Origin: Candidatus Vecturithrix granuli
Lineage (GTDB): Bacteria > Moduliflexota > Moduliflexia > Moduliflexales > Moduliflexaceae
Direction: 5' to 3'
Length of the DNA: 64,000 nt
Assembly: GCA_000739535.1 (NCBI GenBank)
Contig: DF820466.1
Span: forward strand, 696,321-760,320
Positions within the stretch are counted from its first letter, which is position 1; each line of letters begins with the position of its first letter. Positions 6,273 through 38,892 of the stretch are shown one piece after another. The notes below the pieces were generated by a model. That model had not been told where the DNA came from. It did not search any database and worked only from the letters and a program-made list of their open reading frames with translations. The position numbers were made by a program, and so were the translations under genes.

Positions 6273-6323
6273 TTGTGCATACACCTGTCTGCGCAGGCAG
6301 GCGCACGGATGAAAATCAATTTT

Positions 6324-6382
6324 GTATCCCCGGACAGCCTTGTCCGGTCTACGAATAGCCCGGACAAGGCTATCCGGGGTAC
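6324..6382. repeat. CCCCGGACA palindrome, copy 1
   Basis: Arms of 23-24 bp (left 6324-6347, right 6360-6382) around an 11-13 nt loop. The arms start GTA(T/C)CCCCGGACA. A near-identical palindrome is at 9202-9261. It is enclosed by ATGAAAAT at 6310 and ATTTTCA at 6387, the boundaries of the modular unit described in the findings. Confidence 0.8.
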
Positions 6383-6385
6383 GGG

Positions 6386-6433
6386 TATTTTCAAAGGAGT
6401 TGTCATGAGCTCACGCTCACACGACACAATGAA
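6386..6433 (+). repeat. Junction repeat, copy A (SD-ATG-hairpin)
   Basis: TATTTTCAAAGGAGTTGTC precedes ATGAGC, the GAGC/GCTC mini-hairpin and ACACAATGAAA. It aligns with copies at 9014, 9141, 9265 and 38716. It has an SD and ATG, but the frame it opens is short and not conserved. Confidence 0.75.
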
Positions 6434-6507
6434 ACTACAAGAAGGGCGATAAGCAAGAATGTGCCTGAACTTGAATTCTTGCTTATTCTTTATTCCTGTC
6501 GTTTCAT
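6429..6507. repeat. Imperfect palindromic payload after copy A
   Basis: ATGAAACTACAAGAAGG...AAGCAAGAA is mirrored by TTCTTGCTTATT...TTCCTGTCGTTTCAT. It ends directly at AGGAGGT. The stretch GGCGATAAGCAAGAAT inside it recurs at 37231, and the outer arms resemble those of the payload at 9055-9147. Confidence 0.65.
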
Positions 6508-6520
6508 AGGAGGTGGTGCG

Positions 6521-7770: not shown

Positions 7771-8859
7771 TTATTGCTCTTGCACTTCTTTCACCGTCAC
7801 TGCCAGACGTTGAATGCCATCGTCAATTTCTTCCGGTGTTAAAGCGCAATAGGGTAAACGCAGAAAACGTTCGCCGCCGCCTTCCGGGAAAAAGGCTTCT
7901 CCCTCAGCTAAATTCAGGTTATGCGCTTTGGCGCGTTCCAACACTTTTGCAGTCGTCGTGCCTTCAGGCAACGTGACTGAGAGGAAAAATCCACCTTCGG
8001 GTCGGGTCGCTTGCGCATCGGGTAAATATTTATCGAGCGCATCCAGGCAAGCTTGAAGCCGAGGGGCATACAGGGCTTTTAATTTTTCGATCTGGGCCGG
8101 AAGTTTCCCGCTTCGGCAATATTCGTAAATAATACCCTGGCTTAACAGCGAAGGCGTGACATAAGTATCTTCCGCAATCTTCATAATTTTTTTCAGCATC
8201 TCAGCATTTCCATAGAGAATTCCGATGCGCGGTCCAGGACCGATGAGTTTACTGAACGATAGCATGTGAAAGGTACGCTGCGGACAAAGTTCAAATAAGG
8301 TTGGGTGCTCTTTTCCGCGATAGCGCAGGGGACGATAGGGCGCGTCTTCAATCAGCCAGAAATTGTGCTGCTTCGCAAGAGCAGCAATCTTTTGGCGTTT
8401 TTCTAACGAACAGGTTGCGCCCGAGGGGTTTTGAAAATCGGGAATGATATAGAAAAATTTGGGCGTGTGTTTTGCCAATGCGTGTTCCAGGGCTTCGATG
8501 TTCGGGCCATCTGCTTCCAGAGGAATACCCACGACCTTTGCCTGATGACGTTTCAGCAGCGTGATGGTGCGATCATAACTGGGAGCTTCCGTAAATACGA
8601 CATCTCCAGGGGTGATAAAATGAAAACCGAAAAATTCAATGAGTTGCAGTGATCCATTCGAAATCAAAGTCTGGTCAACAGAAACCTTATACCAGTCTGC
8701 TAACCATTCTCGTAATGGCAAAAATCCGGTGGATTTGCCATATTGCATAATCACTGTGCCATGCTTTTGAATCGCCTGTTTCGCTGCTTCAACAATATCA
8801 GCAAGCGGAAAAGATTCGGTCGCCGGAACGCCGCGCGTAAAATTAATTGTATCTGCCAT
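7771..8859 (-). CDS. PLP-dependent aminotransferase (class I/II)
   Basis: A 362-residue fold-type I aminotransferase of the MocR-C-terminal/2-aminoadipate aminotransferase type. The PLP lysine lies in SFSKLIGPGPRIG, with the Asp of LIEDAPYRPLRY and the NPSG motif upstream. There is no HTH domain, so it is an enzyme and not a MocR regulator. The start (MADTINF) is chosen because AAGGAG lies 10 bp upstream; an in-frame ATG 42 bp earlier lacks an SD. The substrate is probably an aromatic or branched 2-oxo acid pair, which cannot be settled from sequence. Confidence 0.85.
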   Translation of the reverse strand: MADTINFTRGVPATESFPLADIVEAAKQAIQKHGTVIMQYGKSTGFLPLREWLADWYKVSVDQTLISNGSLQLIEFFGFHFITPGDVVFTEAPSYDRTITLLKRHQAKVVGIPLEADGPNIEALEHALAKHTPKFFYIIPDFQNPSGATCSLEKRQKIAALAKQHNFWLIEDAPYRPLRYRGKEHPTLFELCPQRTFHMLSFSKLIGPGPRIGILYGNAEMLKKIMKIAEDTYVTPSLLSQGIIYEYCRSGKLPAQIEKLKALYAPRLQACLDALDKYLPDAQATRPEGGFFLSVTLPEGTTTAKVLERAKAHNLNLAEGEAFFPEGGGERFLRLPYCALTPEEIDDGIQRLAVTVKEVQEQ

Positions 8860-9013
8860 AATAGTGTACTCCTTACAGAGAGATGGATCATGATAGAACA
8901 ACAGTCAATTGATGACACTACCTCATGGATGGATCTGTCAAGAATTTTCTGGTTATCTTCATCTGCTGTCAAATTTTTTCTTCATTTTTTCCTTGCTCTT
9001 GATGGACTTTTAA
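8860..9013. other. Spacer upstream of aminotransferase
   Basis: It contains TTGACA on the minus strand (8936-8941) with only a weak TAGTGT -10 at 15 bp, and otherwise no gene. Confidence 0.3.
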
Positions 9014-9060
9014 ATTTTGAAAGGAAAGTGCTTATGAGCGTATGCTCGCTGACACAATGA
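9014..9060 (+). repeat. Junction repeat, copy B
   Basis: TTTTGAAAGGAAAGTGCTT then ATGAGCGTATGCTCG and ACACAATGAA. It is the most diverged copy of the junction (the SD is AAGGA, and two hairpin bases are changed), but the spacing of every element is kept. Confidence 0.65.
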
Positions 9061-9147
9061 AGCGACAAGAATCGCATATAGGAAAGAATATGATGTCAGG
9101 CGTGGCAGAAACTTATTCTTTTTTATATGCGATTCCTGTAGTTTCAA
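9055..9147. repeat. Palindromic payload 1 of the 9-kb array
   Basis: AATGAAGCGACAAGAATCGCATATA at the left mirrors TATATGCGATTCCTGTAGTTTCA at the right, around a loop of about 40 nt. Its right end abuts AAAGGAGTT of the next junction. Confidence 0.75.
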
Positions 9148-9186
9148 AGGAGTTGTCATGAGCGGGCGTTCACCCGTCATCATGAA
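9141..9186 (+). repeat. Junction repeat, copy C
   Basis: GTTTCAAAGGAGTTGTCATGAGC, hairpin with GGGCGTTCAC, then CCGTCATCATGAAAA. It shares TTTCAAAGGAGTTGTCATGAGC exactly with copy A. Confidence 0.8.
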
Positions 9187-9201
9187 AATGACTGATCATT
9201 C

Positions 9202-9261
9202 GTACCCCGGACAACCTTGTCCGGTAGGATGATCACCCCCGGACAAGGCTGTCCGGGGTAC
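9202..9261. repeat. CCCCGGACA palindrome, copy 2 (payload 2)
   Basis: Arms GTACCCCGGACAACCTTGT.. (9202-9224) and the complementary 9239-9261. It is homologous to 6324-6382. Outer ATGAAAAT (9182) and ATTTTCAT (9266) close the unit. Confidence 0.8.
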
Positions 9262-9264
9262 GAG

Positions 9265-9313
9265 TATTTTCATAGGAGTTAACATGAGCGGGACGCTCAC
9301 CCGAAGCAATGAA
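9265..9313 (+). repeat. Junction repeat, copy D
   Basis: TATTTTCATAGGAGTTAAC then ATGAGC, hairpin GAGCGGGACGCTC, CACCCGAAGCAATGAA. It is the best-formed mini-hairpin of the five copies. Confidence 0.8.
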
Positions 9314-9321
9314 CATACGAT

Positions 9322-9382
9322 GTACCGCGAAAGTCCAGTTTCTCGGCTGTTAGCGATGCGCGAAACTGGAGTTTCGCGCTAC
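9322..9382. repeat. Palindromic payload 3, joins gene SD
   Basis: GTACCGCGAAAGTCCAGTTTC (9322-9342) mirrors GAAACTGGAGTTTCGCGCTAC (9362-9382). It is followed at once by ATTTTCATAGGAGGCG, which is the ribosome-binding site of the radical SAM gene at 9406. Confidence 0.75.
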
Positions 9383-9405
9383 ATTTTCATAGGAGGCGTT
9401 CCTGT

Positions 9406-10326
9406 ATGTCATTCTATCGCCCGATATACCTGAAAACCTATCAATGCGGTCAATTACAAGAAAAAGTAGAGTTGGCGGCAAAGGTGTTGCAAAATTGTAC
9501 GTTATGCCCGCGTAAGTGCCATATTAATCGCTTAGCAGGACAAACAGGAATCTGCAAAACAGCCCAAAGGGCCTGGGTATCTAGTTATGGTCCGCATTTT
9601 GGCGAGGAAGCTCCATTAGTCGGACGAAATGGGTCAGGAACCATCTTTTTTACTCATTGTAATCTGCTGTGTAATTTTTGTCAGAATTTTGATATTAGTC
9701 ATCAGGGAATCGGAACGGAAGTGACGGCAGCACAATTGGCGGAAATCATGCTCAACCTGCAGCAGCGCGGCTGTCATAATATCAATTTTGTCACGCCCTC
9801 GCATGTGGTTCCACAAATTCTGGCGGCGTTGCAGATTGCAATTGAACACGGGCTTTCTGTGCCCTTGATCTATAATACTGGAGCTTATGATCAGGTGGAA
9901 ACCTTGAAAATGCTTGACGGAGTGGTTGATATCTATATGCCGGATTTCAAGTTTTGGAATCCGGAAGTTGCAAAACGTACCTGCAACGCGCCGGATTATT
10001 CTGAAGCCGCACGCCGGGCGATTCAGGAAATGCACCGCCAGGTCGGAGACCTTGTGATAGATGCTTCAGGCATTGCCCAGCGAGGGCTGCTGGTTCGCCA
10101 TCTGGTTATGCCTGGCGGACTGGCAGGCACGTCCGACATCATGCGTTGGATTGCCCGGAACATTTCGACCAATACCTATGTCAATATCATGTTCCAATAT
10201 CGCCCTTGCGGACACGCTTTTGAAATGCCCGAACTGGCAAAACGACCTTCAGCGAAGGATTTCAGCATGGCGGTGCAGGCTGCGAAACAAGCAGGAATCA
10301 CCCGGCTTGATAAGCCGTTCTTCTAG
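9406..10326 (+). CDS. PflA-like radical SAM protein
   Basis: A 306-residue radical SAM enzyme. The cluster motif CNLLCNFC lies near residue 86, after an N-terminal CxxCxxxC set (CTLCPRKC near 32) and GICKT. This layout matches the pyruvate-formate-lyase-activating-enzyme-like group often annotated COG1313, sometimes linked to AmmeMemoRadiSam systems. It would cleave S-adenosylmethionine to generate a 5'-deoxyadenosyl radical; the target is not evident, and no glycyl-radical enzyme is in the window. The start follows AGGAGG by 11 bp. Its 3' end overlaps the convergent MATE gene by 29 bp. Confidence 0.85.
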   Translation: MSFYRPIYLKTYQCGQLQEKVELAAKVLQNCTLCPRKCHINRLAGQTGICKTAQRAWVSSYGPHFGEEAPLVGRNGSGTIFFTHCNLLCNFCQNFDISHQGIGTEVTAAQLAEIMLNLQQRGCHNINFVTPSHVVPQILAALQIAIEHGLSVPLIYNTGAYDQVETLKMLDGVVDIYMPDFKFWNPEVAKRTCNAPDYSEAARRAIQEMHRQVGDLVIDASGIAQRGLLVRHLVMPGGLAGTSDIMRWIARNISTNTYVNIMFQYRPCGHAFEMPELAKRPSAKDFSMAVQAAKQAGITRLDKPFF

Positions 10327-38432: not shown

Positions 38433-38807
38433 ATGCCTGATTCTTCTCGTTACAAAATCTACAACCCCAAAGCCGCCGACCGTCTCGGCGTGGTTTTTAC
38501 GCCCAATGAAATCGTGCGTTTCATGCTTGAGAGCGCGGATTATCTGGTCTATAAGTATTTCGGCAAACTGCTGGCTGATCCACACGTTGAGATTCTCGAC
38601 CCTGCTACCGGCACAGGCACCTTTATCACGGAACTGATCGAATATCTGCTTACGATCCTCAAGCCCATTTACCGGGATATTAAGTCAGGTGGAACGCGAA
38701 AATATTCTGAAGGCGTTTCTATAAGGAGATGCCATGAGCGTGTGCTCACCTGGCGCTATGAAAATCAGGCTCGTAGTTGCCGCTTCAGCGACGTGAAGAA
38801 ACGCTGA
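38433..38807 (+). pseudogene. Type ISP/Eco57I-like methylase fragment
   Basis: About 85 homologous residues: RLGVVFTPNEIVRFMLESAD, then EILDPATGTGTFITELIEYL, the AdoMet motif I of N6-adenine methylases in single-chain restriction enzymes. The homology begins right after a hairpin and ends near 38690, where the frame runs into a copy of the junction repeat and stops. The catalytic NPPY region is absent. It is the middle of a gene that would normally exceed 1000 residues. Confidence 0.7.
38716..38764 (+). repeat. Junction repeat, copy E
   Basis: TTCTATAAGGAGATGCC then ATGAGCGTGTGCTCAC, CTGGCGCTATGAAA. It lies 30 kb from the other four copies and interrupts the methylase fragment. Confidence 0.7.
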
Positions 38808-38834
38808 AGCGTTTACTACAAATGAGGATTTTCA
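38758..38834. repeat. Palindromic payload after copy E
   Basis: Outer ATGAAAAT (38758) and ATTTTCA (38828). Inner GTAGT..CGCTTCAGCG (38781-38790) pairs with CGCTGAAGCG..ACTAC (38802-38811). It ends in AAAGAG, a weak AGGAG equivalent. Confidence 0.65.
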
Positions 38835-38892
38835 AAAGAGTCAATATGAGATCCAATGCATCAAGTTGTCTCAAAGAAACCCGATTTTTTGC

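Follow-up and report, generated by a model that had tools for sequence, protein, structure and literature searches.

A palindromic repeat family of probable mobile type that ends in AGGAG, often at gene starts, in the genome of 'Candidatus Vecturithrix granuli'

Directly upstream of the gene starting at position 9406 in the stretch of DNA analysed here (the window, 64,000 nucleotides), three unlike palindromes follow one another, each introduced by nearly the same junction, and the question arises what kind of element is assembled in this way and ends in a ribosome-binding site. The host, 'Candidatus Vecturithrix granuli', is an uncultured filamentous bacterium. The window corresponds to G000:C18:696321-760320 of its genome (UASB270, candidate phylum KSB3), a metagenome bin with gaps of 8,384,694 bp in 21 contigs, for which contamination is given as 10.75% in the genome listing vs 1.9% in PMC4312070. 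We favor, with a probability of roughly 60%, the explanation that the array at 9022-9395 is a member of a genome-wide, lineage-specific and non-autonomous family of mobile-type palindromes, which inserts at AGGAG and regenerates AGGAG.

The preliminary description of this locus had named three junctions of shared order (9014, 9141, and 9265) and three palindromes. All of them are present, the first junction in a degenerate form, and the last payload ends, as had been claimed, in the ribosome-binding site of gene 9406 (Table 1). The pattern TTCAnAGGAGTTnnCATGAGC with up to three mismatches has three matches in the window compared to 0.08 in shuffles, and two further joints, at 6390 and 38718, were recovered by HMM and pattern search, leading to the five junctions previously counted. 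The arms of the three payloads (9058-9090/9114-9146, 9200-9224/9239-9263, and 9320-9345/9359-9384) show complementarities of 85, 96, and 88%, respectively, and RNA folding of 9014-9420 gave z = -11.4 relative to shuffles. An Rfam search of the window returned one tRNA only. The 306-aa product of the downstream gene reads as a radical-SAM protein, and its homologs in relatives show 35-52% identity. A divergent gene (7771-8901, minus strand) is located about 120 nt before the array; its product reads as a PLP-dependent aminotransferase.

Table 1. Positions of joints, payloads and associated features in the window.
Feature	Position	Strand	Description
Short separate array	6321..6512	+	Family D palindrome, joint from 6385, family A5 payload, AGGAG
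Joint 1, degenerate	9022..9061	+	AGGAA 9022-9026, ATG 9034, hairpin GAGC-GTAT-GCTC, ATGAA; HMM E = 7e-4
Payload 1, family A6 (ATATAGGAAAGAAT)	9058..9146	+	Long inverted repeat, closes in TTTCA
Joint 2	9148..9187	+	AGGAG 9148-9152, ATG 9158, hairpin GAGC-GGGC-GTTC, ATGAAA 9182-9187
Payload 2, family D (GTACCCCGGACAACCTTGTCCGG doublet)	9182..9272	+	Closes in TTTTCA
Joint 3	9274..9313	+	AGGAG 9274-9278, ATG 9284, hairpin GAGC-GGGAC-GCTC, ATGAA 9309-9313
Payload 3, family B (CGCGAAAC/GTTTCGCG doublet)	9309..9389	+	Closes in TTTTCA
Last AGGAG	9391..9395	+	Placed as Shine-Dalgarno, 10 nt before ATG 9406; preceded by TTTTCAT
Downstream gene, 306 aa	9406..10326	+	CNLLCNFC motif
Single unit	38718..38840	+	Joint and family C payload, end TTTTCAAAAGAG

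The joint, which can be written as TTTCAn-AGGAG-TTnnC-ATGAGC-loop-GCTCACCCG-nnnn-ATGAAA (consensus ATTTTCAAAGGAGTTGTCATGAGCGTACGCTCACCCGGCACAATGAAA), occurs far beyond the window. Allowing up to two mismatches, AGGAGTTnnCATGAGC has 275 matches in the genome vs 28 for the reversed pattern, and a covariance model of the joint has at least 150. From the 39 joints in the first 860 kb of C18, the sole part of the sequence chosen without regard to repeats, about 380 copies per genome are extrapolated. TTTCAnAGGAG was found 40 times in 860 kb compared to 0-2 times for eight altered versions, which is an enrichment of at least 20-fold. An HMM applied to 1.88 Mb of UASB270 sequence detected 179 joints in 122 arrays, 80 of which are single, 30 double, 9 triple, and 3 quadruple. 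The covariance model and joint searches gave no joint in 39 other genomes, of which one is from the same family and two share the order, and among the genomes tested the repeat is restricted to UASB270. A search for payload B in three relatives, run without positive control, also found none, and 14 exact matches to the short joint core in IMG/VR viral contigs, none extending to the full joint, look like chance. Runs of N begin inside units at G000:C18:455880 (minus strand), C14:182355, C13:296076, and L027 4110; the assembly thus probably breaks at arrays and the true unit numbers may be higher.

Each unit, about 85-145 nt long, leads from AGGAG through a small hairpin, a palindrome from one of eight recurrent families, and TTTCAn to the next AGGAG. 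The left end is constant (TTnnC, the small hairpin ATGAGC-loop-GCTCA, CCCG, and ATGAAA), and ATGAAA/TTTCAT forms the base of the long hairpin in every payload. At the array boundaries, conservation of the joints starts around AGGAG (35 of 64 exact), with little before it. Payload families A1, A3, A5, and A6 carry CTACA[AG]G at one end and CTTGTAG at the other. Family B, a GTAGCGCGAAACTCCAGTTTCGCG doublet, represents about half of all payloads; family C is a CGTAGTAGCCGCTTCAGCGGCG doublet, and families D and E are defined by GTACCCCGGACA and GTACCTGCGAACA, respectively. Judged by their sequences, payloads B to E resemble REP pairs, and B and C are REP-like doublets starting with GTA(G/C). The modular layout with several payloads behind one joint, recognized in the preliminary description from the window, holds throughout the genome, with eight families and not one fixed repeat. 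The Shine-Dalgarno-ATG of the joint opens no conserved frame, since 36 of 142 such mini-ORFs stop at codon 3 and loops of 3-6 nt shift the frame, and a mini-ORF or leader peptide was rejected. Besides this joint there is a shorter one, AGGAGTTATTCATTCGTTTTGGCAAACGCACCACGGCGAATGAAAAT with the end TTCAGGGGAG, which shows the same AGGAG-to-AGGAG design in short units (G000:C18 ~837539-837746 on the minus strand, C11:119881, C12:88234, and others). Another dispersed element, with the ends GTAGTGGTTA / TAACCACTAC, is found at L036 2060-2280 and at L032 720 and 3060, with up to 100 matches in the sample; in the unit at C14:182798, a palindrome similar to it splits the payload.

Where do the arrays end? 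In 54 of the 95 arrays with resolved end, the last AGGAG is followed at 4-12 nt by the start codon (ATG in 52) of an ORF that is 80 aa or longer. The other 41 fail this strict test; they include arrays that precede short genes, that are spaced by 2-3 or 14 nt, or that run into assembly gaps, as well as others that do not lie at genes. None of the 122 arrays lies inside a long open frame. The nearest downstream long ORF is co-oriented for 52 arrays, opposite for 18 and absent within 250 nt for 52, and the nearest upstream one is co-oriented for 86 and opposite for 21, counts that rest on simple ORF calling and are indicative only. In three of the non-gene arrays, a local hairpin of 12-16+ bp starts precisely with the last AGGAG, and its opposite arm supplies CTCCT (for example AGGAGTACAAAGCAGCC / GGCTGCTTTGTACTCCT) with perfect or near-perfect pairing; such a hairpin is, however, also present at 1.3% of control AGGAG sites. 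Since AGGAG is here paired with CTCCT of a local hairpin, these three cases suggest that it pre-existed the insertion.

The distribution of payloads among the joints indicates how the units spread. Identical joints carry the same payload class in 19 of 19 pairs, which implies that mostly complete units have been copied; the agreement is 73-76% at joints one or two mismatches apart and falls to a background of about 30% at distant joints. On the other hand, in twelve pairs different payloads stand behind near-identical joints, so that exchange or replacement of payloads does happen, but it is rarer than whole-unit copying. The notion of a constant joint with changeable inserts has thus to be narrowed: several payloads are used, but they are not freely swapped. 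Likewise, the association of the proposed mobile or recombining cassettes with ribosome-binding sites stands, while the main copied thing is the whole unit and not a cassette.

It is possible, though rather doubtful, that the payloads inserted separately into a base element consisting of the joint and a short ATGAAA/TTTCAT hairpin, similar to SMRs inserting into the near-terminal palindromes of PATEs. The twelve discordant pairs would fit such insertions, as would the A and C payloads that occur as free palindromes, with neither joint nor AGGAG, and the unit at C14:182798 with another palindrome inside its payload. The strong linkage between joint and payload, however, means that most copies spread as complete units afterwards. 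Some E and D palindromes were found with the right end present and the left joint missing, which speaks against our favored explanation of insertion at AGGAG.

According to the explanation that we favor, insertion at AGGAG, a unit would start 3' of AGGAG and end in TTTCAn-AGGAG. It would enter an AGGAG already in place, which as a rule is a gene's Shine-Dalgarno sequence, and leave AGGAG on either side, and the gene would retain its ribosome-binding site with the native spacing. Because the AGGAG site would be reusable after insertion, unrelated units could stack head to tail. We infer mobility through an enzyme of the single-strand (HUH) type that acts in trans, as well as the polarity of cleavage. 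Effects on expression would be mild, as the hairpin ends just before the Shine-Dalgarno sequence. We infer the insertion step itself, since the within-genome BLAST of flanks yielded no empty site (what looked like pairs were hits to other arrays or to the query array) and the loci in relatives are too divergent to align. By eye, no conserved CTCC-like unpaired stretch that might serve as guide sequence was seen 5' of the small hairpin; non-canonical guide pairing is possible in the IS200/IS605-type family (PMC6006769).

The search for such an enzyme revealed 12 Y1_Tnp matches in the UASB270 genome. Four classified Y1 proteins are of IS200-type or RAYT, and the joint was found in none of them; at distances of up to 1.5 kb from ten Y1 genes there was no convincing match to the joint model or the payload seeds. 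Two RAYTs pass the curated cut-off of NF047646, with 120.6 and 94.9 bits, and their flanks hold REPs unlike the units (GTAG-TCCCGCC and GGAG-TGCGAAAGC). The former, G000:C16:206208-206606 on the minus strand (L233), has GTAG-tagged repeats alongside (GTAGTCCCGCC / GGCGGG). The latter, G000:C18:825695-826096 on the plus strand (L234 1280-2260), carries GGAG-tagged REPs on both flanks, with GGAG at the hairpin foot in 81 of 93 sampled arms, whereas published tags of RAYTs and their REPs are GTAG or GTGG (PMC3686654, PMC6006769). As GGAG is also the Shine-Dalgarno core, the RAYT at C18:825695 is a candidate mobilizer. A more specific enzyme version of our explanation would therefore be that the units are REP-type repeats mobilized by a RAYT whose tag shifted from GTAG to GGAG, the Shine-Dalgarno core being the tetranucleotide recognized and targeted. 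The REP-like GTA(G/C) doublets of payloads B and C agree with this, as does the other RAYT with its GTAG-tagged flanks. We nevertheless consider it unlikely: in the units, GGAG is separated from the small hairpin by about 7 nt compared to 0-2 nt in REPs (PMC6006769), the GGAG REPs show no preference for gene starts (7 of 54), neither RAYT is adjoined by a unit, and a four-base match can be coincidence. An extended stem TTnn/nnAA, which would place GGAG at the hairpin foot, was not supported (p = 0.047 in total, with fewer pairs than one slid control).

A different role would be that of selected regulatory or insulating modules of the 5' leader, for example as binding site of an RNA-binding protein or as mRNA stabilizer, spread by gene conversion or duplication and not by transposition. 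The stable hairpin of the array right before the Shine-Dalgarno sequence and the AGGAG that most resolved arrays have at a gene start would be expected of such modules, and TAACTGA repeats before start codons have been proposed as post-transcriptional regulatory sites (PMC4679880). Against them speak the payloads, which differ in sequence and structure across eight families, the mini-ORFs, which are not conserved, the same palindromes without AGGAG or joint, and several arrays away from gene starts. As the origin of the family we therefore regard selection of leader modules as improbable; a regulatory or insulating role of the units as such is possible, and conservation gives no support to it.

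Growth of the arrays from one founder per locus, through tandem duplication or unequal recombination, suggested by the head-to-tail layout and a few adjacent pairs that are 0.92-0.96 alike, is very improbable and refuted as main source, since, of 55 pairs of adjacent units, 15 agree in payload class vs 15.3 expected (p = 0.6), which shows that the arrays were built by independent arrivals. First and last units did not differ in decay (p = 0.58).

Mobile repeats usually limit the damage they cause by landing in intergenic or terminator sequence. An element that lands in a ribosome-binding site and rebuilds the same site would represent a different solution, and if this is true, each ribosome-binding site would be a renewable landing site that is functional after every insertion. 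The units could affect many genes of one genome at the level of translation, and they would constitute a natural test of the effect of a stable hairpin just upstream of the Shine-Dalgarno sequence on expression. A literature search for repeats targeting Shine-Dalgarno sequences found nothing relevant.

Among the known systems, the PATEs of Haloquadratum are, in the part of PMC3119063 consulted, similarly short elements without transposase, of high copy number, with palindromes near both ends and a conserved short terminal oligonucleotide. The UASB270 units share with PATEs and IS200/IS605-derived elements hairpins close to either end and a short invariant boundary sequence, in the units the small hairpin on the left, the long hairpin ending in TTTCA on the right and AGGAG on both sides. 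The PATEs known so far have IS605-type transposon relatives in the same genome, in contrast to the units, for which no IS605-type relative was found in UASB270 and no Y1-encoding element at ten Y1 loci shares the unit ends; tandem stacking at ribosome-binding sites is not described for PATEs in that part of the source. The same part presents the SMRs as repeats of about 110 bp with prominent inverted repeats, strong target preference and unknown mobilizer, which resembles the units; SMR-A, however, targets PATE palindromes, whereas the constant target of the units is AGGAG. By analogy, the payloads may be an SMR-like layer inside a PATE-like frame. With REP/BIME and RAYT systems (PMC3686654, PMC6006769, PMC8266576) the units have in common the layout of tetranucleotide and hairpin, the intergenic position, hundreds of copies, species specificity, the REP-like B and C doublets and RAYTs in the genome. 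They differ by the tag, GGAG about 7 nt from the hairpin with no GTAG/GTGG at 0-2 nt, by units not flanking either RAYT gene, and by AGGAG-to-AGGAG stacking in one orientation instead of alternating REPs. The TAACTGA direct repeats of marine Beggiatoaceae, also large filamentous bacteria, are likewise many short tandem repeats upstream of start codons, but these 7-nt repeats mostly stand where a Shine-Dalgarno sequence would be and lack its character, whereas the hairpin units preserve it (PMC4679880). A MITE of a DDE transposon would have terminal inverted repeats and be flanked by a variable target duplication, whereas the units are flanked by a fixed AGGAG. An integron attC array would have cassette genes between its core sites, and there are none between the units. 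The preliminary description had set the array apart from standard REP, attC, and CRISPR layouts; the layout is closer to PATEs, SMRs, and REPs than to attC or CRISPR, and most likely the array belongs to a palindromic mobile family of PATE/SMR/REP type with AGGAG as its target.
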